A stretch of 64,000 nt of DNA from Paramacrobiotus metropolitanus (lineage: Eukaryota > Tardigrada > Eutardigrada > Parachela > Macrobiotidae), in assembly GCF_019649055.1 (NCBI RefSeq), contig NW_026570222.1, positions 2,356,001-2,420,000 on the forward strand. Direction: 5' to 3'. A model generated the notes under the pieces. It was given only the letters and a program-made list of their open reading frames with translations. It searched no databases and was not told the DNA's origin. The translations under genes and the position numbers were made by a program. Shown here piece after piece: positions 31,709 through 59,049 of this stretch. Position 1 is the first letter of the stretch, and the number at the start of each line of letters is the position of its first letter.

Positions 31709-32886
31709 AAAGGGAAGCAGGTCGCGGCGGAGTCGTTGGTACACCAGTATCCAAATCACCGTCGCTGTTCCTCTTCAGGGAATGGCAGCACGTTCAAAGA
31801 CGCGCGTAGTCGTGGTCACCGGTGAATCGGCTGGTTTACCCGATGTCGTCCGGGGGAGACTCGATTGGATGCCAGGTACAGAGCCTGTAGGTCTGGGTTC
31901 AACGGAGAATCCGGTTAGACTGCCACATAAATACTGCTGGCTTCCGTCCATTCTTCATGGGCGACTTCTGTTGGCCGTTATAGTCGACCTCTGTGGTCGG
32001 CTGCCATGTACCTAGTCGATCTATGTGATCGGCTAGGGTGGCTAAACGTGGTTCGACGATCTGCTTCGTTGCAGTTCCGACTTTGTGATCGGCTTGCACA
32101 ACCGACCTTTGTGGTCGGTTAGTGCGACAATATCTTTTACGTCTATGAATCAAGGGAAAGTACGAAGTCGACCTTTGTGGTCGGCTCGAATACTTATAGT
32201 CAGATCCGAGTCTTCCTGTGCTGTTGGCGGCTCGGCCGAGGGATTTCCGCTATTTACAATGGTGAAAGCTGCTCGGCTACCCGGTTCCGAGGTTGGCCAC
32301 GGGTGCTTGGCAAACATGGTGCTGAGCACGCAGCGACGTATTCAGCGCCACGTTAGCGTAATCCTCTCGGTCTATGCTCCGGAGTCGGTTGGCCGGAGTA
32401 ATCTTCATAGCCGGTCGCGGTTAATGGCGTGGTGTGTACCATGTAACTCTCGGTCGGCTCCATGTAACGCGGATTGGGGCTTCTGTTGGCTCCGATGGTC
32501 GCAGAACGTGGTTGACGATCTGCCAGTGCCATGCTGGGGAACTGAGGTCGGTTGCTCAGTTCTATCCAGGGGATTCCTCGGAAGACGTACCGGAACGGTG
32601 GAAAAGGCCGGCTTGTCAGGTCTAACCACTCGTGTCCGGGTCAAACCGAAGAATCCGGCCAACTTGTGTAGTCGGCACTCTGGCAAAAGTCACGTTGACG
32701 TCCGCCGTATACATGGTTAGTCGGTTTCTGTAAAAAGAACTAAAGAAAAATGTCCATTCCGAAGTCGTTTTTCGGCGATGCTGTTTCTCCGTCAGGTCGA
32801 TTCTCGACCGTGCCGGTTCTCGGCGTTGAGTCCCCTTAGTTGTTCGAAGTGGGGGGATGATCGAGTTCCGATGTGGGAACTCGATC

Positions 32887-34998
32887 TTAACTGAGTAGGA
32901 CTTCGACGGGTTTGTCGCCGCCGAAGTAATCTTCTTCGTCTTCGTCGTCCAAGCGGGGTCGGTGGTGTGGCCGAATGTTCGAGTCCTTGGGTTTACAAGT
33001 CGCCGGGCCACTCCGTTGAGACATCTCGTCGGTCTCATCCGTCTCCTGGCCGGGGCGATCCGCTCTGCCCTTCTTCGATTCCCTGGCCGCCTGTTTCCGG
33101 AGCCGCAGCGCATACGGTCGTGCGCAGGGTGCTAGGTCGTCCGACATCCAAGGTTCGTAGAGCGATGAGTTGAATCCGCTAGGCAAAGTCTTCTTTTGGC
33201 GGTACCAGCTGATGAATCGAGTTGCATCGTCGCTGGGATCTACGTGATCCTCACGAAAGGCATACTTTGTCGCATACCGTTCGTGGGTATACAGCAAGTC
33301 GCGCATCCAGACGGCGAGGATTACACTTCTCATTGGTGTGCCAAGTTGGGCTACGAGGGTTTCCAAGGCCGCTGGTATCATTTCGTTCTGGTACAGTCCG
33401 TACAGGGTGTAATGGCAAAAGTAATTGCCAAGCCGAGCTGCGAAAATGAATCGCAGGAATGCCGTGACTCCGTCTTGGGCCATGTCGACTTCCCCTTCGG
33501 GAAGATGCTGGGTTAAGTCCAGTGCTGCCCGGGCCGCGGTAATTATGAAGGCTGGGTGGGCGTCCGTGATGACGAACTGGGCAATACTTTCTAACTCGTC
33601 ATGGGAGTATTCCCGAGCTCCTAGTTGGCTCGCACGCGTTCCATCCGGGCTGTATAGCGGTACGTTCAGTAAGACCGGGTCAGTCATCGACGGTAACGCA
33701 TTCGATCTGGTATACGGGTGTTCGACATTCTGTGCTGTGTGCGCATTCATGTTGAACTCGGGTTGCCACTGATGTTGTTCCAGCAGCATCTGATATCCAG
33801 ATCGGACGAGGAATTGACGAAGGTTTTCTACCATCCGCCAGACTTGTGGTCGGTTCCGTTCCTCGTAGTTCATAACGTTCATGATGTGGTTTGTTCGTTC
33901 GGTCGGATGTGGCATTACGACTTCAGTTCCCTGTCGTCGGGCATGGTCGTACCGAGGATCTTCTCGGGCCGGCACTTCCACTTGTGGCAGTTGTGCCATC
34001 TGGTCGGCCACATCGACGTCCATTTGCTCTTGTTGAGCTGCTGGTTCGACTTGGACTGCCGCTGCCGGTTCTGCCTGATGGGCTTCCGGCTGCTGTTCAG
34101 ATGGGACGAAGTTACGTTTCGACTTATTTGTTAAGTCGGCCGTAAGTCCGATTCCTGTTTCTCCAGATCCAGTGCGTTTTCCTGGTGGAGGTCTGGTCGG
34201 CTCTTTTCCGACCTGGCGGATGACAGCTCGTTGCTCTTCGATTCTGTCTCGAAGATCAACTGGACCGATTCTATGTCGGAGGTCGTGTCCCGCTAGGTTT
34301 TTGCTAGGTCGGCGCTGCTGCTGTTGAGCCGCCGATTGGGTCCGAGTTCCATGTTGGGGGATCTGCTGAGAAACAGTTGGACGGGCCTGTGTGACCACTG
34401 GCATTGCCCTGCGTGGGATTGCCATCAACTGTTCCTGAGACGCCGGGACAAGGGTAACCGGCTGTTGGGTTCCGTCCGGCATGTTCATCATCATCGTCAC
34501 CGATGTACCCGTCAATGGTCGGTGTGGATCTCCGATGAAGACGTCGCGTACATCGTGAATCAGCTGTTCGCTATCCGAGCGACCCTGCGTGGGTGCCGGT
34601 AACCGAATTTTTATTTCTGGTGCATAGTCGGTCGGTGGGGGATGGGGTTTCATCGAGGCGATTCGTTCGTCGACCTCCTTGATCCTCTTTTGATCCTCCA
34701 ATTGGCGGTTAGCGTCTTGCAGCTGACGGTACTCCCACAGTCTATCTGTTAAGACTGGTGGTCGAGTTCCTTGCCATGTCGGGTCACGAGTACGTTGTCG
34801 CTGGATGGTGGCTAGATTGTCCTGTTCATGCGACTCTAATTGGTCGACTAGGTATTCCCTGCCGGCCAGGTACCGATATGCGCTCATGTTACCAGCGACA
34901 ACATTAATGTAAAGTGCCGCTGCCTGAGCTCGATGTTGCGGTCCAGTGCCGGTAACCCGTTCGTTTGTAAAGGAAACGATACATTGTGCGCAGGGCAA
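32887..34998 (-). CDS. Accessory ORF C (703 codons; open from 35067), unrecognised
   Basis: I do not recognise this protein. The frame is open from 35067, after a TGA, with no early ATG. The first codons after that point encode a CX2C-X12-CX2C pair (about 35040-34979) that could bind zinc. The annotated start at 34998 is a TTG that would cut this in half; the first ATG comes later, at NMSAYRY. The middle is Gln/Pro-rich and probably disordered. The C-terminal 300 residues look folded and mostly helical (FVITDAHPAFIITAARAALD, RFIFAARLGNYFCHYTLYG). The tail is acidic (LDDEDEEDYFGGD). A splice-acceptor-like TTTTGTTTTGACAG ends exactly at 35068, in phase 0. No envelope-type signal peptide or membrane helix is visible. 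Confidence 0.7.
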   Translation of the reverse strand: MPCAQCIVSFTNERVTGTGPQHRAQAAALYINVVAGNMSAYRYLAGREYLVDQLESHEQDNLATIQRQRTRDPTWQGTRPPVLTDRLWEYRQLQDANRQLEDQKRIKEVDERIASMKPHPPPTDYAPEIKIRLPAPTQGRSDSEQLIHDVRDVFIGDPHRPLTGTSVTMMMNMPDGTQQPVTLVPASQEQLMAIPRRAMPVVTQARPTVSQQIPQHGTRTQSAAQQQQRRPSKNLAGHDLRHRIGPVDLRDRIEEQRAVIRQVGKEPTRPPPGKRTGSGETGIGLTADLTNKSKRNFVPSEQQPEAHQAEPAAAVQVEPAAQQEQMDVDVADQMAQLPQVEVPAREDPRYDHARRQGTEVVMPHPTERTNHIMNVMNYEERNRPQVWRMVENLRQFLVRSGYQMLLEQHQWQPEFNMNAHTAQNVEHPYTRSNALPSMTDPVLLNVPLYSPDGTRASQLGAREYSHDELESIAQFVITDAHPAFIITAARAALDLTQHLPEGEVDMAQDGVTAFLRFIFAARLGNYFCHYTLYGLYQNEMIPAALETLVAQLGTPMRSVILAVWMRDLLYTHERYATKYAFREDHVDPSDDATRFISWYRQKKTLPSGFNSSLYEPWMSDDLAPCARPYALRLRKQAARESKKGRADRPGQETDETDEMSQRSGPATCKPKDSNIRPHHRPRLDDEDEEDYFGGDKPVEVLLS

Positions 34999-35066
34999 TC
35001 TGTTGTTGTCCCTCGTCGCGTTATTCCTGCACTGTTGGCAGTCCGCCGTATAAGCTTCCGTACGAG

Positions 35067-35090
35067 TCTGTCAAAACAAAAGTAAGCGAC
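35067..35090 (-). promoter_or_regulatory. Candidate 3' splice site before accessory ORF C
   Basis: In sense the site reads CTTACTTTTGTTTTGACAG, a pyrimidine-rich tract ending in CAG, with the exon starting at 35067. CTTAC could serve as a branch point but is close. The downstream frame is phase 0 relative to the AUG at the LTR/PBS junction. Confidence 0.5.
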
Positions 35091-35284
35091 CCGTTGCTCG
35101 GTTGCATCCTATACTTTTACACCCTGTGATCACTACGGTCGGGCCAGGTCGGTTCTCGATCTGGTCCAAGACGCCTTTGTGGTCGTCTAGTGAGGTAGGT
35201 CGACTTCTGTTGGTCGGTGACGCCTGTGTGGTGTCACTGGAGGAAGGTCGGTTATGCCACTCCTCCAACGCATTCTGCGTTACC

Positions 35285-38200
35285 TCATTCCCGAGTAGGT
35301 GCTTCTGTCGACTCCGGCCGACTTGCTGTGTGCGAGTCGGCCGACTCGGTCAGTTGTGCCGAGGTCGGTCGTGTAGTCGGTAAGTGTCCGTGCCGGTGAG
35401 TCGATGGGTTTAAGGCCAGAAACCGTTGACCGCCCTGGATTTTATCCGTATTCGAGGCGAACCGCTGTTGGTTAAGCGCCTTCGACAAGACGAATTCCAG
35501 ATCGTCCTCCAGGGAATACTTCGTTCGTCGTTCCGTCGGGTCCGGTTTCGGCTTATACTTTGGATCGGTTAGCTGGGGTTTCTCAGTTTTCCATTCGAAC
35601 TCGAACCGTGCCGTGAGTTGGTGGAGTATTTCTCCACGGGTCAATCCTTCCGGATGCCATGACATTCCCATACACGCTTCAATAGCGTGTATCCATCCTT
35701 CATATGTTGAAGGAGCCGGGTCTCTTTGGGCCGGTGGGAACTCATAGTACATCCGTTTTCCGCTGGTGTATGTTCGTATCAACTTCCGTGCATGGTATCC
35801 CAGGTCACAGTAATGTCGTACGTTATTCTGGCTCAGTTGTCGCCAGTCGCCCTTCTCGTCTACCTTCCAGTGTTGGAGGAGTTTGAAGGCGATCCTTGGT
35901 GTGGCGAACTTTGGTCCTTTTGTCGCAAGGGCCTTTAGAGCGGCGAACGTGTACATCCATCCTGCGTCATATTCCGAGACGCTCGGCTTCGGTTTTGAAG
36001 CTGATTTAATGCCGGTATACTTCACCCTAACATTGACCAATGGAGGAATGTCGTCTGGTAGGACTTCCATCGTATCTTCATTCCATTCCGAGAGAAGAGG
36101 CTGTTGGTCAGTGTCGGGAGTCAATGATATCCGTTGACCGTACTTGCGAGGGACGTATACTCCGCCATCTGCCCCTTCGCCCTTAGGATCATCGGCTTTG
36201 TCACCGTTATCCTTTTCTTCGGGTTGCCTATCCGGTATCTCCGGTTCGGCCTGCTGTTGAGGTGCCGAGTTCGACGGTGGTGGGGGTTTACCGTTCTCGT
36301 CGTCGTCCCCGTCATCATCCTTTGGCGACCCGTTCCCAGGTGTTTGGAAATCGTCGTCGTCATCGTCATCGGTTTCTTCCTCGGAAGACGAGATTAGTTC
36401 GGATGACTTCGGTTCTTTCTTCTTAGGCGGCTTAGTCGACTTCGTCTTAGTCGACTTTGACTTTCCCTTCTGTTGGGTCAAGTCTTCTGGTTCCGGCGAA
36501 ATTTCCATAGGCGAGGACGGTGGAAGTGACTGTACATCCTTCGGTATGAACCGTCCTTTAGCGCTCCGAGTCGGCTTCGCCGTGCTTGCTCGTCCCGCTG
36601 GAGCTGATGCCGTGCCGACATATGTTGTCGGTTCATGGGGTGCTCGAGGTCGGGATAAGACTTGGACTCGTCTTTGTGACGACTGTCCTGCCGTGCGAGC
36701 TATGTGCAGCAGGTTGGCTGCTTCGTCCGACGGTTGTTCGTTGGAGTCGCTATACTCTTCGGTAGGTTCCGTACCAGCCGGAGGCTTGTCCGTGTTGACG
36801 TAAGACATCCGGAGGTTAAATTCACGCCGATGTTGTTCCGGTATGAAGTTGGGCACGGTGTATCGTACCGGTACATCGCGTTCCGCATTTGTCGTCTGAA
36901 GGGTATGTTCCGCGACCAGGGCTTCGATTCGACCTTCTATATGGTCGATGATGTCATCGATGTTGCCCTTCTTGTCCATGTACATCACGTTATAAACACG
37001 GGCAATTTGGACCAAAGTCGATCCGCGGGGGTTCCGAATGTATCCGATGCACCGTGCAATTCTAGTCGGTGTATCGTCCGCGTTTCTTGCCGCTGCACTT
37101 TTAAGTGACTTTATAAGGTCCGGTTGGATCAGCTCAGCCATCCGTCCCCATTGTCGGTGAACGGCGACTGCTAATCCGTAATCCAAAGTCCAGGCGACAA
37201 TCTGCATCATGAGTTGATGCGTCAGCCATTTTCCGGTTTCGCCTTCGACCTGTACATTGTTTGACAAGTCCTGTACCAAGGACTGGTAGATGTCCTTGCC
37301 GTTTTCCTTGGCGCTCCGTATACTACGGGTAACTTCGACGTGTACTCGAACTTTGCGGATTAATGTGTCGACCGGATCGTCCGGCTGTTCATCCGGGAGG
37401 CGTTCGCGTACATCGTCCGGGGCTGGCCACTGTGATTCATCCGTGTCCGCTCCGTGATCAAACATTTCCTTTAGGTCGCCTTTGTACCCTTCGTAGGGAT
37501 CGCCGTCTCCATGGTCGGAGATCGAGTCCTTATCTTCAATGTCCGAGACCTGATCGGATTCCACATCGGACTGTTGCTTCGATGTGGAAGGCTGATGTTG
37601 TTCGGGCGGAGTCGGTGGTTTTGGTGGATTTCGTAGCCGACCTCCTGAAGTCTTAGCTGGCTTTGTGCCTGCTCGTTGCATGACTTCTTGGAACTTCCGT
37701 TCTACCGCTTCCTTGTCGTGCGGTTCCTGTGCCTTCTCCTTCTGCGCGGTCCTTTGTGGGCCGGCATCCGAAATATCCAGGTCATCGGACGACTTATGTC
37801 GTTTAGCCGGGTTAGGTTTAGGCGTTTTGACCGTTGAGTCCGACTTCGGTTTGGTCGGCTCCTTAGCCTCCGGCTTGACTGGTTTCTTCAGAACTTCTGT
37901 CGGTTGCGGTTTAGGAGGCTGTTTCGCTGCTTCCTTCTTGGCCTTCCGTTTATCCTTGTGGGATTTTGCGGAATTAGCCGAGTTGATGACCTTGGTGCCC
38001 TGATCGTCGTCGATCTGGACAGAAGGTTGTCTGGTCGGAGGGGGAACTTTCATCTTAACGACGGGTTGTTGTACCGTCTTTTTGGTCGACTTGGGTTCCG
38101 GAGCGGTGGTTTTGCGTGGAGTCGGTGTAGCCGCTTGTAAGGCTTTAGGTCGGCTCCTTTCCGCTCGGTAATGTTCTCCCATTCGTTTCATCACGTCGGC

Positions 38201-39205
38201 CATCTTCTCGGTAAGTCGGTCGTGATCACGCCGAGCTTCCGTGGTGTTTCCAACTATACTGGCACGTCGGATTCTCAGCGAATGCCAGAGTTCCTTATCC
38301 TCTGGGTACGCCATGTCGATGCAGACGTCCTGTTCCAGCCTCGTCAAGTCCTTTACATGTTGTAAGGCTAGGTCGTCATGGAATTCTCGCGACGAGTCTT
38401 GAGGTGGTTTCTCCGTGGCCGTACTCCGTTTGGTCGGTATGTTATCCGACTTGGTCGTCGACTCGTTCGTTCGAGACTCGTCTATTGTTAGACGTGGACC
38501 AGAGTGAACGGAGGTCGGTTCGTCCCTTTGTGGTGACGTTTCGACCGTGGTTCCGACTCGCGCTTCCGAAGGGGATGTTGTATCCATCGCTTCTTCGGTT
38601 TTCTTTGGTTTCGTTGGGGTGTTCCGAGGTGAGAACCTAGGTGGTTTCTCAGTCGTCGGTTGACTTGGCAGCTTAGTCGGCTGGGATGCTGATCGAGTCG
38701 GCGAAATCTGCTTCACCGGCGATCTACCTCGTTTCGGTATAGATCCCTTCGTTGGTGCCGCTGCCTTTTGGTGCATGGAGTCGTCGGAGTCGATGTTGTC
38801 CGCGTTCTCCTCTTCTTCGCTGCTATCCGACATTGTTATCGGAATCTTCTCGGTAACCTCTTCTCCAGGCCGAGGTTGAATCTCCAATGTGTAGGCGCCC
38901 GGGTTGATGCTCGGGTTGCGGAGCCGCTGAATCGTCTGGATCATGTTCGTATCCAGCGGGAGTTGTCGTAACTCCTGCTTTCCGCATCGCAGAGTAACCA
39001 ACCTTCTCAGGACTTTGTCTCTATCCTGGATGGTAGCATGGATCTTCTGGGCCATTTGAGTCTGTTGCTCTTCTGTCATGGTCCGATCTCGGATACCTCC
39101 TTGAAGTTGTGCTTCGTAGAGTATCCGTTGAAGGTCCAGCGTTTTGGCTTGGCCGACTAGCTTCTTATGGACGGCCGGAGTAAACAAGGCTTTTGCTCCC
39201 ATCAC
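35285..39205 (-). CDS. Accessory ORF B (1306 codons), unrecognised, charged and partly disordered
   Basis: I do not recognise this protein. The first ATG is at 39202; the frame stays open upstream into the end of accessory ORF A, which stops at 39262, so the two overlap in frames one base apart. Roughly the first 600 residues are Lys/Pro/Ser/Glu-rich and low complexity. A folded helical block follows (LIRKVRVHVEVTRSIRSA through AELIQPDLIKSLKSAA). Then comes a second disordered part with a run of seven Asp. The C-terminal 250 residues look folded (WMYTFAALKALATKG, NVRHYCDLGYHARKLIRTYT, MYYEF), vaguely like a winged-helix but unproven. There are no enzyme motifs. Its size and charge would suit a nucleic-acid-binding structural protein. 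Confidence 0.75.
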   Translation of the reverse strand: MMGAKALFTPAVHKKLVGQAKTLDLQRILYEAQLQGGIRDRTMTEEQQTQMAQKIHATIQDRDKVLRRLVTLRCGKQELRQLPLDTNMIQTIQRLRNPSINPGAYTLEIQPRPGEEVTEKIPITMSDSSEEEENADNIDSDDSMHQKAAAPTKGSIPKRGRSPVKQISPTRSASQPTKLPSQPTTEKPPRFSPRNTPTKPKKTEEAMDTTSPSEARVGTTVETSPQRDEPTSVHSGPRLTIDESRTNESTTKSDNIPTKRSTATEKPPQDSSREFHDDLALQHVKDLTRLEQDVCIDMAYPEDKELWHSLRIRRASIVGNTTEARRDHDRLTEKMADVMKRMGEHYRAERSRPKALQAATPTPRKTTAPEPKSTKKTVQQPVVKMKVPPPTRQPSVQIDDDQGTKVINSANSAKSHKDKRKAKKEAAKQPPKPQPTEVLKKPVKPEAKEPTKPKSDSTVKTPKPNPAKRHKSSDDLDISDAGPQRTAQKEKAQEPHDKEAVERKFQEVMQRAGTKPAKTSGGRLRNPPKPPTPPEQHQPSTSKQQSDVESDQVSDIEDKDSISDHGDGDPYEGYKGDLKEMFDHGADTDESQWPAPDDVRERLPDEQPDDPVDTLIRKVRVHVEVTRSIRSAKENGKDIYQSLVQDLSNNVQVEGETGKWLTHQLMMQIVAWTLDYGLAVAVHRQWGRMAELIQPDLIKSLKSAAARNADDTPTRIARCIGYIRNPRGSTLVQIARVYNVMYMDKKGNIDDIIDHIEGRIEALVAEHTLQTTNAERDVPVRYTVPNFIPEQHRREFNLRMSYVNTDKPPAGTEPTEEYSDSNEQPSDEAANLLHIARTAGQSSQRRVQVLSRPRAPHEPTTYVGTASAPAGRASTAKPTRSAKGRFIPKDVQSLPPSSPMEISPEPEDLTQQKGKSKSTKTKSTKPPKKKEPKSSELISSSEEETDDDDDDDFQTPGNGSPKDDDGDDDENGKPPPPSNSAPQQQAEPEIPDRQPEEKDNGDKADDPKGEGADGGVYVPRKYGQRISLTPDTDQQPLLSEWNEDTMEVLPDDIPPLVNVRVKYTGIKSASKPKPSVSEYDAGWMYTFAALKALATKGPKFATPRIAFKLLQHWKVDEKGDWRQLSQNNVRHYCDLGYHARKLIRTYTSGKRMYYEFPPAQRDPAPSTYEGWIHAIEACMGMSWHPEGLTRGEILHQLTARFEFEWKTEKPQLTDPKYKPKPDPTERRTKYSLEDDLEFVLSKALNQQRFASNTDKIQGGQRFLALNPSTHRHGHLPTTRPTSAQLTESADSHTASRPESTEAPTRE

Positions 39206-39261
39206 TTTCCGCGACGGGCTCGGCTTCTCTTCGGCCGGTGGTAGGGAAGACGGAGTCGCCT

Positions 39262-50298: not shown

Positions 50299-50742
50299 TT
50301 ATGCTCGGTTTATCCGTCTTACAGTGTCGGACTGACAGATCGAATTCTTCGTCGTCTTCTTCCTCGGATTCTTCCGAAGGTCGGTTATCGGAGTCTGTGT
50401 CCGCCGAATCACTCGTACTCTGTATATCCGAGTCGTCCGACTGGTAATCTTCGAATTCGACTTCCGATCCGTTTTCAGGATTCGACTTCTGGCATATTGC
50501 CGACTTCGACCTGTGGTCGTTTCAGCTTGGTCGACTTGCTCCGTCGGTTGGGTAGGTCGATTTGCTTCATCCTGATTCTCAAGGTCGGTTGGCTGTGAGC
50601 CTATGTCGCTCAGCCATCGGATGCTCGTCTGTTGGGGCTTCCGAAAGCGGTCTACCTTCCGTTCCTGTTGCGGAGGCGACGGTGACGACGGTCTGTCGTC
50701 CGACCAAGTCAGGTCGTGATGAGCCTTTATGGCCCGTACCAC
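50299..50742 (-). CDS. Pol linker segment in shifted frame (147 codons)
   Basis: It starts with a GTG and lies between the 150-codon ORF and the RT frame, each in a different frame from it. The first half is Pro/Gln/Arg-rich (SPSPPQQERKVDRF). The frame swap into the acidic RT N-terminus falls near 50515, inside a GTCGAAGTCGG stretch. It is not recognised as a domain. It is probably part of one ancestral Pol reading frame broken by two compensating indels, or a disordered linker. Confidence 0.4.
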   Translation of the reverse strand: MVRAIKAHHDLTWSDDRPSSPSPPQQERKVDRFRKPQQTSIRWLSDIGSQPTDLENQDEANRPTQPTEQVDQAETTTGRSRQYARSRILKTDRKSNSKITSRTTRIYRVRVIRRTQTPITDLRKNPRKKTTKNSICQSDTVRRINRA

Positions 50743-50746
50743 TCCG

Positions 50747-51199
50747 TCAATGTTGTCCTTGACAGATGGTACACTGATAAGGTTTATCAGTTTCTTCCAG
50801 GATTACATTTTCCTGGGGTTTCGCCGGGCTACTCACAAACGTCACGTGGTTGGAGTGCGGCATAAGTGGTGGTAGCGGTGCGGGGATTTGTCGCGTTATA
50901 GCGGTGTCCTCGCCATACCGTTGCCAGAATGCGGTCGTTGACGATTCTCCGTGCAACTGAACTCGCTGCATGTAGGCAAAGAGTTGCGAGCCTAGTTCCT
51001 GGCAGGGCATTTCTAAAGGTCGTGGGACGGGGAGTCCGTATTCCATGTACTGTCGATGGATCGGAATTCGTTCATCTTCCCATTCCCATGCTTCGTCCTC
51101 TATGTCATTCATGAGGGCGATTACAGGTTCACACATTTGTTGTGCGTCCCGTATTTGCTCGGGGGTTACCGCTCCGTTCTGTCGCAGAGTGGTCACCAT
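50747..51199 (-). CDS. Short Pol-region ORF ending in a CxxC (150 codons)
   Basis: Helical segments (AQQMCEPVIALMNDIEDEAW) are followed by a Pro/Ser-rich stretch and a terminal CTICQGQH, half of a zinc-knuckle-like motif cut by a TGA. It sits between retropepsin and RT. I do not recognise it. It may be a segment of the polyprotein whose zinc finger continued in another frame. Confidence 0.45.
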   Translation of the reverse strand: MVTTLRQNGAVTPEQIRDAQQMCEPVIALMNDIEDEAWEWEDERIPIHRQYMEYGLPVPRPLEMPCQELGSQLFAYMQRVQLHGESSTTAFWQRYGEDTAITRQIPAPLPPLMPHSNHVTFVSSPAKPQENVILEETDKPYQCTICQGQH

Positions 51200-51319
51200 C
51201 TCTAACGTCCGTTGGTCGAGAAAGTGTCGAGCTCCCGAGAACCAAGTTCGGTACTTTGTCGTACTCTTCTAGGTTCTGGGCATCCGCTTCAGCGGATGCC
51301 TCTGGTATCGGGATAGACT

Positions 51320-52702
51320 TTAGTACTGTCTTGCCGGTCGTAGTGTACCGTCGCGTATCCGTTTCTGATAGTGCTCTATCACGTTGTGGAGTGCTAGTTC
51401 CTCCAGCAGAGTGCGGTTCGTATCCCGGCAATCGCGGCAGATGTTACGTGGAGTTCGCCGGGTGATCAAGCCGACTAATCCGAGCTTCGTTTCTACCGTG
51501 TCCGATGCCTCTGGTATCGGGATAGACTGCACTACCGTCGTTCCTTCCGATTGTTCCGGAATTGGAATCGGTGTTAAAACGAAGGTGAATTTTGAATGCA
51601 GGTAGTCGCATCCGAGCAGCACTGGGATGTCCGCTTCAGTCGGCTGGACATGGAATGTATGGTGGCTAGTAAAGCCCTGCATCGTCACAGGTGCAGTACA
51701 GCAATGAGACACCATAAAGGCGACTTGTCCGCCTACACCAAGTATTTTGGTGTAATGTCCGAGGGGTTCCATTGTTAAACCGTTCCTCTCGCAAAACCGT
51801 TGTTCGATGAGTGAAGTCTCCGCTCCGGTATCCAACATCGCCATTGTGGGCGTGGATCCGACTTGGATTTCGTGTGTCCAAGCTCGAACTGTTTTCGGTT
51901 TCTTATGCGTTCCCTTCTCAAAGGTTACTTCCCGTATCGTTGGTTTGATGGGAATTAGTGACACCGGTCCGTGGTCGGCTGGCTGTTGAGTTGAACTTTG
52001 TGTAAGTTCGACTCCGACTTCACCCGCTTCCTGTACCTCAGGTCGGTTAGCTACTCCGTCCTCCGGTAATTCGGCGGTTCGGAACCGTTGTGCCTGAGCC
52101 AGTATCCGTTCTTCTATTGAGGTGTCTGTTGGCCTCAATTTTGACCACATATAGTCGAGGTTCAGGAATGTTCGAGAACTGGCTATCGTTCTAACTGGTC
52201 GCTCTTTTGGCTGGAAGAGGTCCGCTTCTCCTGGCCGAGAGTAAACGGGTACCTGTGCTCCCAATGGGACCGTTTCCCATTCTTCGACTTCTCCTTCCGA
52301 TTCTTCGGTGAGGTCGATGGCTGCCATTGTCGCAGCGTATCTATCCGTTGCGCGTCCGGATGATACATTGGGGAAGTTTCTGTTGCCCCGGTGCGTGAAT
52401 CGGCGTCCCGGTCCTCCGCGTCTTGGGCATCGTCTGGCCTGCTCGGTTGAGTTTATCCTCACCGACAATCCGGTCCAACTTCCGTGGCCGGGCCGTTCTA
52501 CGTCACTTTGTATGACGGACGGCGCAGTCGCTTTGTTCGCGCTGCTTAGGTCGGGCAATTTCTGCGTTCCGACCTCCGACGTTCCAGCTTCGAGTCGAGG
52601 GGCTGGGTCGGTCGCCTCGAGTGCCTGTTGCATCCCGGGCCACGCTTCGACGGTGCCATTGTTGGCGTACACGCCGAGCTGAGCGGCTAACTTCCGAGCC
52701 AT
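51320..52702 (-). CDS. Retropepsin ORF, duplicate copy (460 codons), 5' end frameshifted
   Basis: This is the second (downstream in sense) copy of the aspartic protease ORF. It carries the active site AMLDTGAETSLIEQ and the flap-distal VLLGCDYLHSKF. The sequence is nearly identical to the copy at 52923-54668 over 1.3 kb. One T is missing at about 52733, where the other copy has four Ts. This breaks the frame, so the natural start at 52926 gives only an 80-codon ORF (52687-52926) and the protease part is left starting at an internal ATG. The C-terminus differs from the other copy, ending in a Cys/Arg-containing tail (NICRDCRDTNRTLLEELAL). A third copy of the SIPIPEAS linker occurs just downstream, near 51296, in another frame. 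Confidence 0.85.
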   Translation of the reverse strand: MARKLAAQLGVYANNGTVEAWPGMQQALEATDPAPRLEAGTSEVGTQKLPDLSSANKATAPSVIQSDVERPGHGSWTGLSVRINSTEQARRCPRRGGPGRRFTHRGNRNFPNVSSGRATDRYAATMAAIDLTEESEGEVEEWETVPLGAQVPVYSRPGEADLFQPKERPVRTIASSRTFLNLDYMWSKLRPTDTSIEERILAQAQRFRTAELPEDGVANRPEVQEAGEVGVELTQSSTQQPADHGPVSLIPIKPTIREVTFEKGTHKKPKTVRAWTHEIQVGSTPTMAMLDTGAETSLIEQRFCERNGLTMEPLGHYTKILGVGGQVAFMVSHCCTAPVTMQGFTSHHTFHVQPTEADIPVLLGCDYLHSKFTFVLTPIPIPEQSEGTTVVQSIPIPEASDTVETKLGLVGLITRRTPRNICRDCRDTNRTLLEELALHNVIEHYQKRIRDGTLRPARQY

Positions 52703-52926
52703 CTCCGCCTCCTTTGTGGAGGTCGATATTGCTTTGTGAATTCCTCCTCGGAGCTGTTTTCGTTCAGTCCGAGTAGTTGGAGGATGGTGGCTATCTGTTG
52801 GTAACCTTCCTCCATCGTCGTGGGAAAGTTCAGTTCGTTCCGGGAAGTAAGCGGCTGGTTAGTGGGGTTATCCTTGTCCGGTGGTTCGGTCGGATGTTGG
52901 AGGTCGAATGAGTCACCGGAGCTCAT
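52687..52926 (-). pseudogene. Frameshifted N-terminal part of the duplicate retropepsin ORF
   Basis: It begins MSSGDSFDLQHPTEPP exactly like the intact copy at 54668 and leaves frame after EEEFTK because of a single-T deletion in a T run near 52733. Its ATG overlaps the preceding stop as ATGA (52923-52926). Confidence 0.8.
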
Positions 52927-54668
52927 CGACCTTGGACGTTTCCCGGGGAGTTACTCCGAGCCGGCCCATTGTTGGGTGGCGTCGAGTTTAGCGACTGGCG
53001 GGGCGGCAACGGTTCTCTGTATGCCGGGGAACCTTGTTGGTTCCCACCGCCATTGTTGCGGTTTCCGCCATTCCCCTGGCCGGGCGACCGGTTTCTGTTA
53101 CCGGGGCTACCCGAGCCTCCTGCCTGTTGGCGTTGGCGCGGCGGTGGTACGACGTCCTTCCAGAAGGGATTCGCCGAGCCTACCGGGCCAGGGTCCGACG
53201 GGTGATCAATCCGACTTATCCTTGCTTCACTTGGTAACTCGCCCGATGCCTCTGGTATCGGGATAGACTGCACTACCGTCGTTCCTACCGGTTGTTCCGT
53301 TGTAGGGATCGGTGTTAAAACGAAGGTGAATTTTGAATGCAGGTAGTCGCATCCGAGCAGTACTGGGATGTCCGCTTCAGTCGGCTGGACGTGGAATGTA
53401 TGGTGGCTAGTAAAGCCCTGCATCGTCACAGGTGCAGTACAGCAATGAGACACCATAAAGGCGACTTGTCCGCCTACACCAAGTATTTTGGTGTAATGTC
53501 CGAGGGGTTCCATTGTTAAACCGTTCCTCTCGCAAAACCGTTGTTCGATGAGTGAAGTCTCCGCTCCGGTATCCAACATCGCCATTGTGGGCGTGGATCC
53601 GACTTGGATTTCGTGTGTCCAAGCTCGAACTGTTTTCGGTTTCTTATGCGTTCCCTTCTCAAAGGTTACTTCCCGTATCGTTGGTTTGATGGGAATTAGT
53701 GACACCGGTCCGTGGTCGGCTGGCTGTTGAGTTGAACTTTGTGTAAGTTCGACTCCGACTTCACCCGCTTCCTGTACCTCAGGTCGGTTAGCTACTCCGT
53801 CCTCCGGTAATTCGGCGGTTCGGAACCGTTGTGCCTGAGCCAGTATCCGTTCTTCTATTGAGGTGTCTGTTGGCCTCAATTTTGACCACATATAGTCGAG
53901 GTTCAGGAATGTTCGAGAACTGGCTATCGTTCTAACTGGTCGCTCTTTTGGCTGGAAGAGGTCCGCTTCTCCTGGCCGAGAGTAAACGGGTACCTGTGCT
54001 CCCAATGGGACCGTTTCCCATTCTTCGACTTCTCCTTCCGATTCTTCGGTGAGGTCGATGGCTGCCATTGTCGCAGCGTATCTATCCGTTGCGCGTCCGG
54101 ATGATACATTGGGGAAGTTTCTGTTGCCCCGGTGCGTGAATCGGCGTCCCGGTCCTCCGCGTCTTGGGCATCGTCTGGCCTGCTCGGTTGAGTTTATCCT
54201 CACCGACAATCCGGTCCAACTTCCGTGGCCGGGCCGTTCTACGTCACTTTGTATGACGGACGGCGCAGTCGCTTTGTTCGCGCTGCTTAGGTCGGGCAAT
54301 TTCTGCGTTCCGACCTCCGACGTTCCAGCTTCGAGTCGAGGGGCTGGGTCGGTCGCCTCGAGTGCCTGTTGCATCCCGGGCCACGCTTCGACGGTGCCAT
54401 TGTTGGCGTACACGCCGAGCTGAGCGGCTAACTTCCGAGCCATCTCCGCCTCCTTTGTGGAGGTCGATATTGCTTTTGTGAATTCCTCCTCGGAGCTGTT
54501 TTCGTTCAGTCCGAGTAGTTGGAGGATGGTGGCTATCTGTTGGTAACCTTCCTCCATCGTCGTGGGAAAGTTCAGTTCGTTCCGGGAAGTAAGCGGCTGG
54601 TTAGTGGGGTTATCCTTGTCCGGTGGTTCGGTCGGATGTTGGAGGTCGAATGAGTCACCGGAGCTCAT
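52923..54668 (-). CDS. Retropepsin ORF, intact copy (581 codons), with duplicated zinc-ORF tail
   Basis: The aspartic protease that matures Gag-Pol. The ATG at 54668 overlaps the stop of the preceding zinc-knuckle ORF as ATGA, an arrangement used for termination-reinitiation in other retroelements. An N-terminal helical and disordered region precedes the protease (THEIQVGS, AMLDTGAETSLIEQ, GVGGQVAFMV, PVLLGCDYL). After the protease, the ORF runs into a second copy of the zinc-ORF tail (GPVGSANPFWKDVVPPPR ... NVQGR) because of the tandem duplication, and again ends in ATGA. The fusion of protease with this Gag-tail repeat is a by-product of the 1.74-kb duplication. Confidence 0.9.
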   Translation of the reverse strand: MSSGDSFDLQHPTEPPDKDNPTNQPLTSRNELNFPTTMEEGYQQIATILQLLGLNENSSEEEFTKAISTSTKEAEMARKLAAQLGVYANNGTVEAWPGMQQALEATDPAPRLEAGTSEVGTQKLPDLSSANKATAPSVIQSDVERPGHGSWTGLSVRINSTEQARRCPRRGGPGRRFTHRGNRNFPNVSSGRATDRYAATMAAIDLTEESEGEVEEWETVPLGAQVPVYSRPGEADLFQPKERPVRTIASSRTFLNLDYMWSKLRPTDTSIEERILAQAQRFRTAELPEDGVANRPEVQEAGEVGVELTQSSTQQPADHGPVSLIPIKPTIREVTFEKGTHKKPKTVRAWTHEIQVGSTPTMAMLDTGAETSLIEQRFCERNGLTMEPLGHYTKILGVGGQVAFMVSHCCTAPVTMQGFTSHHTFHVQPTEADIPVLLGCDYLHSKFTFVLTPIPTTEQPVGTTVVQSIPIPEASGELPSEARISRIDHPSDPGPVGSANPFWKDVVPPPRQRQQAGGSGSPGNRNRSPGQGNGGNRNNGGGNQQGSPAYREPLPPRQSLNSTPPNNGPARSNSPGNVQGR

Positions 54669-55087
54669 CGACCTTGGACGTTTCCCGGGGAGTTACTCCG
54701 AGCCGGCCCATTGTTGGGTGGCGTCGAGTTTAGCGACTGGCGGGGCGGCAACGGTTCTCTGTATGCCGGGGAACCTTGTTGGTTCCCACCGCCATTGTTG
54801 CGGTTTCCGCCATTCCCCTGGCCGGGCGACCGGTTTCTGTTACCGGGGCTACCCGAGCCTCCTGCCTGTTGGCGTTGGCGCGGCGGTGGTACGACGTCCT
54901 TCCAGAAGGGATTCGCCGAGCCTACCGGGCCATTTGTCGAGTATCGGCGGTACCAGTCGTCGTACCACCGAAGGTTCGGATTGTTATCCGAGCCATAGAT
55001 GCAGCGCGACTCGTCATGGTTGTTGAACATGCAGTGCCTGCATCGGAAGGTCTTGTCCTTCGTCCACTGGAAGAAGGCTGCCTCCAT
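54665..55087 (-). CDS. Nucleocapsid-like ORF with one CCHC zinc knuckle
   Basis: It carries CRHCMFNNHDESRC, an exact CX2CX4HX4C zinc knuckle that binds RNA during packaging. The rest is Gly/Asn/Pro/Arg-rich. An ATG is at 55087, but the frame is open back into the last codons of Gag, in the -1 frame relative to it, so it may be made as a Gag extension by -1 frameshifting near 55171. I saw no classic slippery heptamer there. Its stop overlaps the protease ATG as ATGA. Confidence 0.8.
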   Translation of the reverse strand: MEAAFFQWTKDKTFRCRHCMFNNHDESRCIYGSDNNPNLRWYDDWYRRYSTNGPVGSANPFWKDVVPPPRQRQQAGGSGSPGNRNRSPGQGNGGNRNNGGGNQQGSPAYREPLPPRQSLNSTPPNNGPARSNSPGNVQGR

Positions 55088-55170
55088 CTTGTCGACGTAT
55101 GATGTTCCTTGCCGAGCACTTTGTTGTGCCTGGGGGTCGGTTGCCTTGTGGGCCGCCGCCTCCGCCGCGG

Positions 55171-58100
55171 TTAGGGGAAGTTCCCACGGCCGCGATTCCC
55201 GCCGCCGCGTCCTTTTCCGCGACCATAACCTCCGCCGCCGTATCCTTGTGGAGGATACTGTCCGTATGCGGAGTACCCCTGGTTCGAGTTCTGTCCGTAA
55301 CCAAAACCTGTGTTGTTTTGGTTACCGCCCGAGCTATAACCTGGGCCGCCGTAGTTGTTAACGGGGGCTCCTGTTCCAGGCGCTGGGGGGTTCAGATTCG
55401 CTGCTGCCACTCCTGCCCAAGTCGGCTGCTGGACTGGTGCTTGTTGCACCGGTGGCGTCGGAGCCGGATTTAGTTGTCCGTACTGTGCCGTTGGAGTCTG
55501 GTATCCCGGCATCATGTGGGGCTGATATCCGGTCTGTTGCGGTATCGCCGGAGGTGGAGTCGGGACAGGTGCGGGTGTTGCTGCCCGAACTCTGGCGTAG
55601 TCGCTGTCACGCGATTTCCGCACCTCATACATTTCCTTGCCGTTAACGAAGTCCCGCAGATAGTCACGGAACTCGATCGGCGTCGCCGGCATCCTGATTT
55701 CCAGGGCCTCCCGCAGTTTGGGTTCATGGATGTTCTCCCGAAGATGATATAGTATCATCTGGTCGGTGACGGTGGGGACTTGGGACTTCATGAACATCAT
55801 CGCGTCGTAGTATTGTTCCGGCGTTTCTTCGCCGAAACGGAATATCCGCTTGTTTATTCGGGATATCATGTTCACTTCCTTGTTCTTGTCCGCAAATCGC
55901 TGTTCAAATTTGGTCAGCCATAAGTTGACTGGCCAGCCGCCAATTGGTTCTCCAGCGGCTTCGAGGGTATGCCAATGCTCCGCTTGGCCATCTAGTTGGG
56001 CCACCAAGTCGGCCATGAAGGTCTGGTCGTCTTCGTACCATTGTTGGGCTTGACGATACAGGCTTCGAATCTGCTTAAGCCACCCATGAAGTTTGGTGTG
56101 GTCCCCGTCGAACGGCGGTAAAGGTTGTCGACGTCCGTGGGTCATTGCGCGGATCAAGGCAACGTGCGCCGGATCCTGTGCCAGAGGAATCGGATTTGCC
56201 GCCGGCGCAACTTGTTGTGCAGCCGGGGCGGGTGGTGGGTTAGCATTTGGCATGTGACCTTGTTGGTCTTCGTACGCCTCCTGTTGGTAGGCTTCATCGT
56301 AATGGCCGTTGTATCCGTCCTGTTGCGGATACCGAGCCTGAGCCTGGTCTGTGTGACGAGGCTGTTGGGGCTGTCCTCCGTACTGATTCTGCGGTGGAGG
56401 TGGCGCTCGATTTTGTCTCGGCGCCGACGGATAGAATCCACTTGGCTGATCGTAGACTCTTCCGTACCGGTCGGGCTGTGTCCCCTGAGCCGGCATCCGA
56501 CTTTGTGTAGGTCGGTATGGAGGTCTCCGACCTTGCTGGTCGGAGCTATCTTCTCCATTTCTTCCGTCCTGCTGCTGGTCAGCCGTGTTGAATGACCGAG
56601 CTCGCCCGCGCTCGGAGTCGAACTGCGGGTTTTGACGGAGCAGGTTCGGATTGGAATTCGTCCGTGGTGGGCGATATGCCTCCATGCCAGGTCGTGGTGG
56701 CTGGATTGGGAGACGTTCAGCATCCGTTGTCCGATCTCCTCTGGTATTGGGTACCGGCGCGTACGTTGTTGTGCGCGTCGCGTACGAGGTGCTAGTGTAT
56801 GCACCGGCCGACATTGTTGTCGCCACGTTCGTCGTTGGCACTCGTGGTGCCGCGGTCGACGTGTTGTGTTCCGGTTCCGGAGCACTCGGTATTGTTGGAG
56901 GCTGTGGGATTGTTCCCACGCTCGGGTCGGTTGTTACGACTCCGACGAAGTAGGAGGTGTTGTTCTCCTTCTTCGCCATTTCTTGGGTCGGGTTGATTCC
57001 CCACAGGATGTCACTGATTGTTCGTGACGGCTGTTGATCCTGTGCTATGGACGTCCGGTATGAAGGAGGTTCAGCCCGACTTTGCTCCTGGTATGGAGGA
57101 AGCTCAACCTGGCTTTGTTCCAGGTGTGAGGAAAGTTCGACCTGGCTTTGTTCCAGGTGTTTCTTTTCCTCCCTCAGACACCGTGTTTCCGTGTCCATCT
57201 CGTCCATTTGCCGCATCATGTCTGTGAGGTTGCGGGCGGCCTGTTCGCCGAATTCGTACAGCTCGGTTTCACGAGCCTCAAGGTAAAGGATGCGGCTGTG
57301 TTGCGCCTCGTTTACCTTGTGGGCCTCGTTCAGGTTGTGCTCCAGTTGTGCTCGGAGTTTCTGTTCCTCCTTGAGGACCTTGTTCAGTCCGTGGACCTGG
57401 TCGGCTAGCTGGGCGTTTGCTTCCACCAGGTCGACATCGGCTGTCCTTTGGTTAGGAAAGCCCATGTCCCGAGCATTCTCGTCAATGAACCGACGTCCCA
57501 TTCTGACGAAAAGGAGTTCTATCTCCGACTCGAGTTCGTCGACTCGTTGTGTCAGTCGGTCGATCTCGTTATCGGCCTTCTTTAGCTCCACCACGTATCT
57601 ATCGACTTCGTTTCGGTAGACCTCGGCTTCTTCATTGGCCGTGTTGAGTTGCTGGTGGAACGCTCCGGCTGCTTGTTCCGACTCGACCAGTGCGGTCTGA
57701 ACATCGGCCAGGTCTTTCTGTGCTTCTTCGAGCGCTTTGTTCGCTCCGGTGAGTTCTCGGTTTAACTCGTGGACCGCTTCCATAGATCGATCCAACATGC
57801 CCTTGAGTGTAGTGGTTTCATCGATGTCGTGCCGACACGGTTGGTCGGTACGCTTCAATATGGCGTTGAGCCGGTCGATTTCCCGTTGTTGGGTGGCGAT
57901 GCCCTTGTTGGCATCAGCCATATCTCGTTCCCATTTCCTCCGTTCGAGTTTATGGGTGTCCTCCGAGTTTCGGAGGGATCCTTCTGCCGAGTCGACGATT
58001 TTGTCCGCCAAAACGATCTGTGTGATCAGTTTATGGCATCTCGCTCGGAGTAGGTCGAGATCGTTGATCTTTTCGGGCGGTGTTGCCGCGATCCACTTCT

Positions 58101-59049
58101 TAGCCGTGTATTCGAGTGCGCTGGCCTGGTAGCCAAGGCTCTCCTTATCGGACTTAGGTGGTGTTGTGAAGAATCCGTCCGCACTACTCGGTCTTGATGC
58201 ATTTGTCGCCTCAAAGACTTCGTTCGTCGGTGACGGAGTACTGCCGAGTTCGCCCGTTTCGAACATCGGTGGTGACGATCTAAGTGTCTGGTCGACAGGT
58301 CGACTTTGTGTCGCCTTAGTCGACTTCACCGTTTGTTGAGCTTCGGTTGCTCGAGTCGAGTCGCTTCCGGTTGGCGAAGGTCGGCTCAACGGTGAAATTA
58401 TCCGTTCGTTGGGTGCCGGCATGTTAGTCGGCGATCCGGCTGGATGAGGACCGCTTCGTGGCGGTGCCTCGGAATCTTTGGTTCCTGCCGGTGATTTAGT
58501 TGGCTGGACGGCCGCATCCGACTTTGTGTCGGTTGGTTGCCGTTCCAGGCTAGTCGGTTGCTTGTTACCGACTTCCTTTTCTCCGACCTCTGTGGTCGGC
58601 GTCTGTTGACCGACCTTGGAGTTTGGCGAAATCCTTCCGACCTGTGTGATCGGTTGGATGTTGCCGACTTCTGTTGTCGGTTTCTCCATTCCGTTCGAGG
58701 TCGGTTGTCCGACCTCTTTCGTTAGTGGTAGGTCGACCTTCGGTTGGTCGACTTCGTTTACTGAGGGCTGGTCGACCATTTGTTGGTCGGCTTCCCTAGT
58801 CGGTGATTGTTTACCGACTTCTTTGATCGGAGATTTTCGCTCGACCTGTGTGGTCGGCGATTTCCGTCCGACTTGGTTAGTCGGTATGTCCATGTTGGAC
58901 GAGGTCGGCTTCGGCGCTTCTTCCGTCCTGTTGGGTGATTGCCGTCCGAGCTCGGTGGCTTTTGTAGCCGTTACCGAGTCTGGAGCTCCGTGTGAGCTCG
59001 ACTGTTGGTCGGCATGAGACAATGTGGTCTCTGCCTGCAGCTGTTCCAC
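55171..59049 (-). CDS. Giant Gag (1292 codons) with repeats, coiled coil and Ty3-type Gag domain
   Basis: This is the structural protein of the particle. The start given is a GTG; the frame is open from about 59085 and is entered from the leader ORF at a G6 run, so it may be one protein. Residues about 55-180 are degenerate 12-residue repeats around PTTQVGRKSP, encoded by GTCGG hairpins. Residues about 330-700 form a long coiled coil (WERDMADANKGIATQQREID, ADNEIDRLTQRVDELESEIE). Then a Pro/Gln/Tyr-rich region follows. The retrotransposon Gag domain lies at about 965-1140 (PPFDGDHTKLHGWLKQI, AQLDGQAEHWHTL, PEQYYDAMMFMKSQ, FRDYLRDFVNGKE). The C-terminus is Gly/Arg-rich (GRGKGRGGGNRGRGNFP). It is two to three times longer than ordinary Ty3/Gypsy Gag. 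Confidence 0.9.
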   Translation of the reverse strand: MEQLQAETTLSHADQQSSSHGAPDSVTATKATELGRQSPNRTEEAPKPTSSNMDIPTNQVGRKSPTTQVERKSPIKEVGKQSPTREADQQMVDQPSVNEVDQPKVDLPLTKEVGQPTSNGMEKPTTEVGNIQPITQVGRISPNSKVGQQTPTTEVGEKEVGNKQPTSLERQPTDTKSDAAVQPTKSPAGTKDSEAPPRSGPHPAGSPTNMPAPNERIISPLSRPSPTGSDSTRATEAQQTVKSTKATQSRPVDQTLRSSPPMFETGELGSTPSPTNEVFEATNASRPSSADGFFTTPPKSDKESLGYQASALEYTAKKWIAATPPEKINDLDLLRARCHKLITQIVLADKIVDSAEGSLRNSEDTHKLERRKWERDMADANKGIATQQREIDRLNAILKRTDQPCRHDIDETTTLKGMLDRSMEAVHELNRELTGANKALEEAQKDLADVQTALVESEQAAGAFHQQLNTANEEAEVYRNEVDRYVVELKKADNEIDRLTQRVDELESEIELLFVRMGRRFIDENARDMGFPNQRTADVDLVEANAQLADQVHGLNKVLKEEQKLRAQLEHNLNEAHKVNEAQHSRILYLEARETELYEFGEQAARNLTDMMRQMDEMDTETRCLREEKKHLEQSQVELSSHLEQSQVELPPYQEQSRAEPPSYRTSIAQDQQPSRTISDILWGINPTQEMAKKENNTSYFVGVVTTDPSVGTIPQPPTIPSAPEPEHNTSTAAPRVPTTNVATTMSAGAYTSTSYATRTTTYAPVPNTRGDRTTDAERLPIQPPRPGMEAYRPPRTNSNPNLLRQNPQFDSERGRARSFNTADQQQDGRNGEDSSDQQGRRPPYRPTQSRMPAQGTQPDRYGRVYDQPSGFYPSAPRQNRAPPPPQNQYGGQPQQPRHTDQAQARYPQQDGYNGHYDEAYQQEAYEDQQGHMPNANPPPAPAAQQVAPAANPIPLAQDPAHVALIRAMTHGRRQPLPPFDGDHTKLHGWLKQIRSLYRQAQQWYEDDQTFMADLVAQLDGQAEHWHTLEAAGEPIGGWPVNLWLTKFEQRFADKNKEVNMISRINKRIFRFGEETPEQYYDAMMFMKSQVPTVTDQMILYHLRENIHEPKLREALEIRMPATPIEFRDYLRDFVNGKEMYEVRKSRDSDYARVRAATPAPVPTPPPAIPQQTGYQPHMMPGYQTPTAQYGQLNPAPTPPVQQAPVQQPTWAGVAAANLNPPAPGTGAPVNNYGGPGYSSGGNQNNTGFGYGQNSNQGYSAYGQYPPQGYGGGGYGRGKGRGGGNRGRGNFP

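Follow-up and report, generated by a model that had tools for sequence, protein, structure and literature searches.

We found that a giant long terminal repeat (LTR) retrotransposon of the Ty3/gypsy type in the tardigrade Paramacrobiotus metropolitanus carries dozens of small hairpins, dispersed along its sense strand, that share the apical loop ACANA and differ in their stems. The element, ~32 kb in length, occupies positions 29074..61048 on the minus strand of a 64,000-nucleotide stretch of contig NW_026570222.1 (NCBI RefSeq assembly GCF_019649055.1, positions 2,356,001 to 2,420,000 of the forward strand), hereafter the window. On the basis of sequence comparison, we hypothesize that these hairpins are dispersed and redundant docking sites for one RNA-binding protein, the likeliest being Gag, that would package or condense the long genomic RNA. 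We give this reading a probability of roughly 0.45. An earlier, sequence-only reading of the window had proposed such dispersed ACANA-loop hairpins, and the excess that we measured is stronger than it had claimed.

Hairpins were listed as stems of at least 4 pairs, G-U allowed, around the loop ACANA on the minus strand. The window holds 53 of them, 45 within the element and 8 in the remaining half; a 1.74-kb tandem duplication accounts for three of the 45 as second copies. The interval first proposed for them, 31985..58856, contains 42 of the 45, and the true range is wider, from at least ~30.9 to 59.4 kb. Perfect Watson-Crick stems of at least 4 bp on a 5-nt loop flank 35/253 ACANA sites of the element versus 1.14 expected (100 dinucleotide shuffles, maximum 4). 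By the same criterion we counted 1/237 sites in the host flanks, which are not known transcripts, and 0/34 for the reverse-complement motif within the element. When apical loops of either 5 or 7 nt are considered, 48/241 ACANA sites are found on a stem of at least 4 bp (one tandem copy dropped) versus 1.49, 1.41, 1.58 and 1.94 in shuffles of 2-, 3-, 4- and 5-mers, respectively (200 each; maxima 7, 6, 6 and 7). These shuffles exclude base composition or the reuse of a few words as the source of the excess; there are 34 distinct arms among the 48 hairpins, and CGAC or GACC stands beside the loop in only 9 of them.

Coding constraint alone is likewise ruled out. Shuffling synonymous codons within the open reading frames (ORFs) left 2.78 ACA in 5-nt loops on average versus 28 observed (maximum 8, 200 shuffles), and 4.11 versus 36 in 7-nt loops (maximum 12), a set that overlaps the first. 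Furthermore, no reading frame is free of hairpin ACANA (22, 6 and 11 sites for frames 0, 1 and 2, compared with 67, 52 and 57 for all ACANA in ORFs), with some lean towards frame 0. Both the dinucleotide and the synonymous-codon controls, by which the sequence-only reading had proposed to check its claim, are therefore far below the observed counts. An energy scan gave a similar picture, with 280/828 ACA located in the apical loop of a local hairpin of -6 kcal/mol or lower versus 64.5 expected (40 local shuffles, maximum 79), an excess of ~200 hairpins in the element; in host sequence the scan found 14/563 and 22/726 ACA on the two strands. Three other RT-bearing elements of the genome (RT, reverse transcriptase), picked by a match to RVT_1 and long open frames, have 2/52, 0/61 and 2/54 ACANA sites in such hairpins (4/167 in total). 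Genome-wide, the exact pattern of one common type of hairpin was found 414 times and its reversed control once. A known Rfam element was rejected as the identity of the hairpins, with 0 matches above the gathering score in the window. One tandem copy was masked or dropped for the triplet scan, the synonymous and k-mer shuffles, the loop-base and subfamily counts, and the substitution and odd-pair tallies; both copies were kept for the hairpin listing, the perfect-stem test, the energy scan, stem extension and the reading-frame tally. Sites near the ends of pieces were skipped.

The element is multicopy. A search of the genome with its RT gave at least 58 matches (55/1890 candidates scored), of which 31 are near full-length at 92-100% identity and the remainder mostly near 84-85%. 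Based on identity and blast, we distinguish four groups with labels of our own, each named after a copy: A (the window copy), B (contig C25), C (C68) and D (C60), which are 81-87% identical to each other in the DNA of the RT and integrase (IN) region. For B, C and D we read one long copy each, together with 8-kb parts of two further B-type copies. The hairpin class is found in all four groups, with 36+22, 8+32, 24+24 and 19+20 ACA hairpins (5-nt plus 7-nt loops) in A, B, C and D, respectively, of 784, 660, 789 and 839 ACA sites, compared with 2/201, 0/216, 2/176 and 1/198 in the reverse-complement orientation.

When all 64 trinucleotides were scanned in A, ACA was the top loop triplet by z at loop sizes 5-9 (offsets 0, 1, 1, 2 and 2). 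Counting maximal stems only, ACA leads in A at loop sizes 5 to 8 and ranks second at 9; in C it leads at 4 to 8, and in D at 4 and 6 to 9, with AGA taking the lead at 5. In B it leads clearly at size 7 (23/510 versus 1.78), weakly at 5 and 6, and not at 8 or 9. The loop written TTCTGTT on the plus strand, which the sequence-only reading had set apart as a related class, turned out to be the 7-nt form of the same motif. Loop counts in A (n=36) were ACAAA 16, ACACA 8, ACAGA 6, ACATA 3 and others 3. We rejected hairpins of the METTL16 type for N6-methyladenosine, which have the motif UACAGAGAA with G as the fourth loop base; ACAGA makes up 6/36 of the loops here.

The excess is motif-specific: with the four groups pooled, 133/871 ACA.A sites are flanked by a stem, the next motif by rate being AGA.C (31/599) and the mean rate 0.011. 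This bears on the idea that the RNA is under a general drive for ordered structure, such as would protect it from RNA interference or decay, and that ACA simply makes a favourable loop. Windows of A, C and D that lack ACA hairpins with stems of 4 bp or more are still more folded than shuffles (mean z -0.80 to -0.98, host -0.11; B windows were not in this split), as that idea predicts. A general drive would nonetheless neither single out one motif nor set the base at the loop edge (see below), and we regard it as highly improbable.

Stem length is also characteristic. A next pair forms with a chance of 0.54-0.79 at pairs 2-6 and 0.31 at pair 7 in the pentaloop stems of A, C and D, and of 0.57-0.86 at pairs 2-5, 0.41 at pair 6 and 0.14 at pair 7 in the heptaloop stems of B. 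Among the control loops, GAANA has an extension chance of 0.20-0.30 through pair 5, and two long stems occur with CCANA. Since extension is raised to pair 5-6 and then falls toward chance, selection seems to ask for a minimal stem of 5-6 bp and no longer.

Individual hairpins, all on the minus strand, illustrate how a constant loop is combined with different stems, and every stem named by the sequence-only reading was found. The 3′ non-coding region contains CGACC-ACAGA-GGTCG (31985..31999) and TAACCGACC-ACAAA-GGTCGGTTG (32099..32121, one G-U pair). The stem CGACC/GGTCG returns at 32169 and 42399 and as CGACC-ACACA-GGTCG at 58842..58856, close to CCGACC-ACAGA-GGTCGG (58583..58599) and CCGATC-ACACA-GGTCGG (58637..58653, one G-U pair). 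Others are CGACTTA-ACAAA-TAAGTCG (34120..34138), TCGTC-ACAAA-GACGA (36668..36682) and CGATAACC-ACACA-GGTTGTCG (43962..43982, one G-U pair). The imperfect pairs at 43962 and 58637 are indeed G-U in the sense RNA, as had been stated; the 11-bp example CCTAGCCGATC-ACATA-GATCGACTAGG (32011..32037, read from the sequence) instead has a sense C-A mismatch. Several hairpins have an informative counterpart in the B copy. GGATC-ACAAA-GATCC (40032..40046) and CTCATC-ACAGA-GATGAG (40313..40329) each have their closing G changed to A, while the B counterpart of GGATC-ACAGA-GATCC (41523..41537) has no ACA. CCTCC-ACAAA-GGAGG (54449..54463) corresponds to CTTCA-ACAGA-TGAAG, with two compensated pairs; GTAACCAAAAC-AACACAG-GTTTTGGTTAC (55297..55325, 7-nt loop, 11 bp) differs by one compensated pair and a loop without ACA; and ATCTTC-ACACA-GAAGAT (59407..59423) corresponds to ATCCC-CACATAA-GGGAT, with two compensated pairs and the closing pair opened. 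Coding linkers and 3′ non-coding sequence had been given as the location of the class, which is correct as far as it goes; hairpins are also located within the RT and IN coding sequence, at lower density.

Next we compared the subfamilies site by site. The set as a whole is kept among relatives, as expected of a dispersed signal (one copy per subfamily), and many single sites turn over: when ACANA hairpins of 5 bp or more are sorted into 68 homologous groups, 53 of these occur in a single subfamily, 11 in two and 4 in three. Groups that could not be fully aligned to another subfamily (21/68) were counted as single unless linked and left out of the substitution counts, as were 267/675 hairpins not fully alignable. 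The ACANA core is retained in 82/144 aligned comparisons between subfamilies. The B copy (L031, 2794-3328) contains a repeated stretch with several near-identical CCGAC-AACACAA-GTCGG hairpins, an instance of local site amplification.

Synonymous sites within hairpins are constrained: at fourfold-degenerate sites, 658/904 comparisons are unchanged, whereas identical codons outside hairpins predict 549.6 (153 hairpins; the difference has a 95% interval of 0.083-0.156, which is optimistic because comparisons were made in both directions). Counted by cell, ACANA stems have 51 two-sided changes that restore pairing versus 15.5 expected under independent substitution, and 45 one-sided mismatches other than G-U or A-C versus 127.8 expected. 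In the RT region of 30 A copies and one B copy, eight hairpins gave 12 paired versus 4 unpaired two-sided states, compared with 2-6 paired and 5-13 unpaired when partners were slid by 1-3 columns; most copies of one of the eight have no ACA in the loop.

Imperfect palindromes are generally known to undergo templated repair, and two-sided changes would also be produced if RT switched strands at ACA loops and copied one arm onto the other, without any selection. Such palindrome-making appears very unlikely to us, because, a few exceptions aside, stems stop extending at ~5-6 bp, hairpin synonymous sites change less rather than more, three other RT-bearing elements are nearly free of the class, and a shared difference at the loop edge is not predicted by it.

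That shared difference is found in subfamily B. The bases flanking the ACANA loop are C-G in 59 and C-A in 2 hairpins of A, C and D combined, versus C-G in 0 and C-A in 10 of B (Fisher p 1.4e-10); the 7-nt loops of B are C-A in 10 and A-A in 9. A second B copy (96% alike, 8 kb) has C-G 0, C-A 4 and A-A 5. At 8 homologous B positions that keep the core, the base at the closing position is A in 6, G in 1 and T in 1, with a matched background of 0.206 for G-to-A (p 0.0015). Because the loop-edge comparison was chosen after looking, these p values are weakened. Stems vary among these sites, so that conversion of a single unit does not account for the B edge, and a single change along the B branch is enough on the unrooted tree ((C,D),(A,B)).

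A fixed loop motif with free stems that is repeated, replaced without loss of the class, and altered jointly at its edge in one lineage is what would be expected of a trans-acting loop reader. The suggestion of the sequence-only reading that the hairpins are a repeated binding site is compatible with this joint change. In the mechanism that we propose, the genomic RNA would bear dozens of hairpins, each with an apical ACANA on a stem of ~5-6 bp of free sequence, that may act as redundant and individually dispensable docking sites for one trans-acting protein; this protein would read the loop and its edge, not the sequence of the stem. The likeliest reader is Gag, encoded by the element itself and carrying an RGG-rich tail and a CX2CX4HX4C knuckle in its C-terminal part, and many Gag molecules bound along the 32-kb RNA could select it, condense it and nucleate the packaging of a genome that would be ~three times the traditional 10-kb limit. 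We infer, rather than observe, that the sense RNA folds, that a protein binds it, that this protein is Gag and that the purpose is packaging. More tentatively still, the hairpins may form a distributed address code, in which dozens of redundant sites are addressed to one element protein and a shift of its specificity in one subfamily pulled the scattered loop edges along; we hold this to be possible rather than probable.

Gag offers features that fit this role. The Gag ORF (55171..59049, minus strand, 1292 aa) consists of a coiled coil, a capsid-like region and an RGG-rich tail, and is the region densest in hairpins (7.2 per kb). The RGG-rich tail and the knuckle follow the capsid-like part in the copies read of A-D, CX2CX4HX4C being the form that knuckles take in retroviral nucleocapsid. 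In the window copy the knuckle (55001..55042, minus strand) lies in a different frame from the Gag ORF, while the B, C and D copies (one each) have a matching knuckle after the RGG tail of Gag. The Gag ORF matches LOC129600878 of the same species (54% identity over 33%).

A different protein of the element could instead be served by a distributed response element, for nuclear export, stability or ribonucleoprotein assembly. Downstream of the integrase the element has ~4,000 aa of extra coding sequence without a Pfam match, and for the two of its ORFs that were searched, relatives were found only in the same species; in Cer1 of Caenorhabditis elegans, also an LTR element, its own protein CERV is needed for nuclear export of the genomic RNA, according to the portion of the source at hand (PMC10309623). 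These extra ORFs have no recognised RNA-binding domain, one structure model has a mean predicted local distance difference test (pLDDT) of 36, and the greatest density of hairpins lies in gag. We regard this main alternative to Gag as rather unlikely. The reader could also be a host RNA-binding protein acting in decay, silencing, localisation or translation, for which the element gained sites to exploit it. The tests used here do not separate host from element proteins. However, the edge differs in one subfamily within a single host genome, which is easier to reconcile with a subfamily-specific partner, and the host flanks gave 1/237, though they are not known transcripts; we consider a host reader unlikely.

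A number of results weigh against the docking-site reading. Hairpin density drops in RT, IN and ORF4, and spacing is near random (coefficient of variation 0.94). The control loop AACNA also has some excess (23/1107 sites at 4 bp or more). All relatives come from one genome, and the two B copies read at length are 96% alike. A third B-like copy (8 kb) has one closed and one open loop edge, and the B difference is therefore not uniform. Among the 59 closed hairpins of A, C and D, 31 are unaligned in B and 18 lack the ACANA core there, so that the homologous loop-edge test rests on the 8 positions above. The knuckle of B differs from the others at some residues (for example P in place of D), and nothing indicates that these differences matter. 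Counted as separate events, 18 compensatory changes (17/47 alignable groups) stand against 15 two-sided non-pairing changes (12 groups). Non-ACA-loop hairpins also have restored pairs (228 versus 175 two-sided non-Watson-Crick), and covariation is therefore not confined to ACA loops. The covarying stems claimed by the sequence-only reading thus exist between copies, with a modest surplus of events, and much of the variety of stems reflects site turnover. Accordingly, covariation is secondary support, and the case rests on recurrence, controls and synonymous constraint. Lastly, single odd pairs in non-redundant 7-bp ACANA stems are A-C in the sense strand in 19 cases and G-U in 4.

This last result concerns which strand folds. 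Since A-C in the sense is a wobble on the opposite strand, the folded molecule could be the antisense transcript or minus-strand complementary DNA, whose UNUGU or TNTGT loops would be bound by nucleocapsid, RT or a host protein. In favour of this are the odd pairs in 7-bp stems (p 0.018 relative to a background of 0.204 to 0.152) and the subfamily changes at ACANA stems, where A-C reaches 0.83 and G-U 0.64 of expectation. At 5, 6 and 8 bp the A-C to G-U counts are 23 to 12, 19 to 13 and 13 to 3. The same lean is found in non-ACA hairpins (63 to 20; the two sets do not differ, p 0.58) and may be mutational, the 6-bp stems are closer to balance, and for all ACA hairpins both kinds of change are at 0.70 of expectation. 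We therefore dropped strand inference from wobble pairs; as an argument for the sense strand, the G-U wobbles put forward by the sequence-only reading fail, the counts leaning the other way.

Whole-strand folding leans towards the sense strand. In 80-nt windows, the sense strand of all four groups has a mean z of -1.04 to -1.19 relative to its own shuffles and the antisense strand -0.86 to -0.99, a difference of 0.15-0.24 z units in favour of sense (standard error 0.06-0.08), whereas host sequence is at -0.11 and -0.15. Among the control elements, folding is mild in two (-0.69 and -0.41) and lacking in the third (-0.20), and none has a marked strand bias. The element thus has a folding energy below that of shuffles, more so on the genomic strand, as in genome-scale ordered structure. 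The sense RNA is the likelier folded molecule, a preference that draws solely on the whole-strand test because odd pairs do not favour sense, and folding of the other strand is in our judgement improbable. The class excess, its presence in four subfamilies and the synonymous constraint agree with the earlier proposal of selection on RNA structure, without establishing the sense RNA as the molecule that folds.

The assignment of the element follows from its architecture (all features on the minus strand). It is bounded by LTRs of ~432 bp each (5′ LTR 60618..61048, 3′ LTR 29074..29505, ends read from the sequence), which are 97.7% identical and have the TG..CA ends of an LTR retrotransposon; a stretch starting with TGG after the 5′ LTR is, from its position, a possible primer-binding site. 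The tandem duplication (51453..54932, 98.6% identical) lies between gag and RT and doubles the aspartyl protease region. It is followed by the RT and RNase H ORF (47753..50233) and the integrase ORF (45974..47491), both recognised by domain match. The order protease, RT-RNase H, integrase and the Ty3-type RT are those of Ty3/gypsy elements; the best matches of the RT among solved structures, by sequence comparison, are 4ol8 (RT/RNase H chain) and 7q5b (Ty3-G Gag-Pol). No target-site duplication was found at the window copy, whose flanking 5-mers TGTTT and TAGCC differ; its lack in one copy does not exclude Ty3/gypsy membership and is compatible with recombination or decay.

Downstream of the integrase, the extra ORFs span ~12 kb and about 4,000 aa, followed by a 3′ non-coding region of ~3.4 kb. 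Two of them (1968 and 1306 aa, 35285..45168) match parts of LOC129594469 (2979 aa), a protein of another subfamily in the same species and the sole relative found for the 1968-aa ORF. Being parts of a single 2979-aa protein, they indicate that the reading frame is split in the window copy. The last ORF (703 aa, 32887..34998) has a single relative found, LOC129596996 of the same species, and its structure model, the one with the low pLDDT, is unusable. A Pfam search of the extra ORFs gave no match above the cut-off, and no RNA-binding domain was recognised. On the plus strand, frames of 150-210 aa antisense to the element ORFs (42661-43227 and others) are probably due to chance in stop-poor sequence.

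In the neighbouring sequence, we noted an array of ~25 copies of an 8-bp unit (CTGACGTT) in host sequence at 26339-26541. By eye, exons resembling an ionotropic glutamate receptor gene lie beside the element (27870-28400), and several CCHC-like knuckles on the plus strand at 62190-62390 probably belong to another retroelement.

Genome-scale ordered RNA structure is known in RNA viruses, and the element resembles it in the average folding excess along its RNA, stronger on the sense strand; it differs in that its local hairpins are dominated by a single loop motif. In RNA viruses, dispersed packaging signals are a matter of debate, their motifs being short and degenerate. Small RNA viruses are described, in the parts of the sources that we consulted, as having multiple dispersed stem-loops with a shared coat-protein recognition motif in the apical loop (PMC6281560; for MS2 and satellite tobacco necrosis virus, PMC4751978 and PMC6475782). 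The many stem-loops with a shared loop motif and variable stems found here resemble those signals, which however concern small RNA viruses with proposed capsid contacts, while ours belong to a 32-kb LTR retrotransposon and are known from sequence alone.

How LTR elements of 25-32 kb package their RNA is, to our knowledge, an open question. A 2019 review, in the sections at hand, names particle capacity among the limits on element size and describes the planarian Burro, a gypsy-like element of more than 30 kb with an internal region of up to 25 kb and CCHC knuckles among other added domains in a 4,873-aa polyprotein (PMC6431247). The tardigrade element is similarly gypsy-like, more than 30 kb in total and endowed with large extra coding regions, but its internal region is ~31 kb and its LTRs 0.43 kb, and those sections mention no such hairpins for Burro. 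Gag-directed packaging of LTR element RNA, as we propose it here, has been described in Ty3 and Ty1, and the portions of those papers that were available do not mention a repeated loop motif (PMC8396678, PMC11381356, PMC4974528). Cer1 provides a parallel for the response-element alternative, in that an element-encoded protein acts on its own genomic RNA; the mRNA for CERV is spliced and has exons in common with gag, and the part of that paper at hand mentions no repeated RNA hairpin (PMC10309623). A term search of the available text of a curated-repeat paper on two other tardigrades found no mention of Paramacrobiotus (PMC11071193). Among the papers listed in our literature searches, judged by title and the start of the abstract, none describes such hairpins in an LTR retrotransposon or this Paramacrobiotus element, which is not proof of absence.

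Taken together, these results provide a large statistical signal in copies of four subfamilies within one genome. The loop edge of subfamily B is a natural experiment, and the proposed code is directly testable with short synthetic RNAs. If the address-code reading is true, it would mean that RNA and protein have co-evolved across a whole genome, and would allow the packaging of an RNA ~three times as long as the traditional limit.

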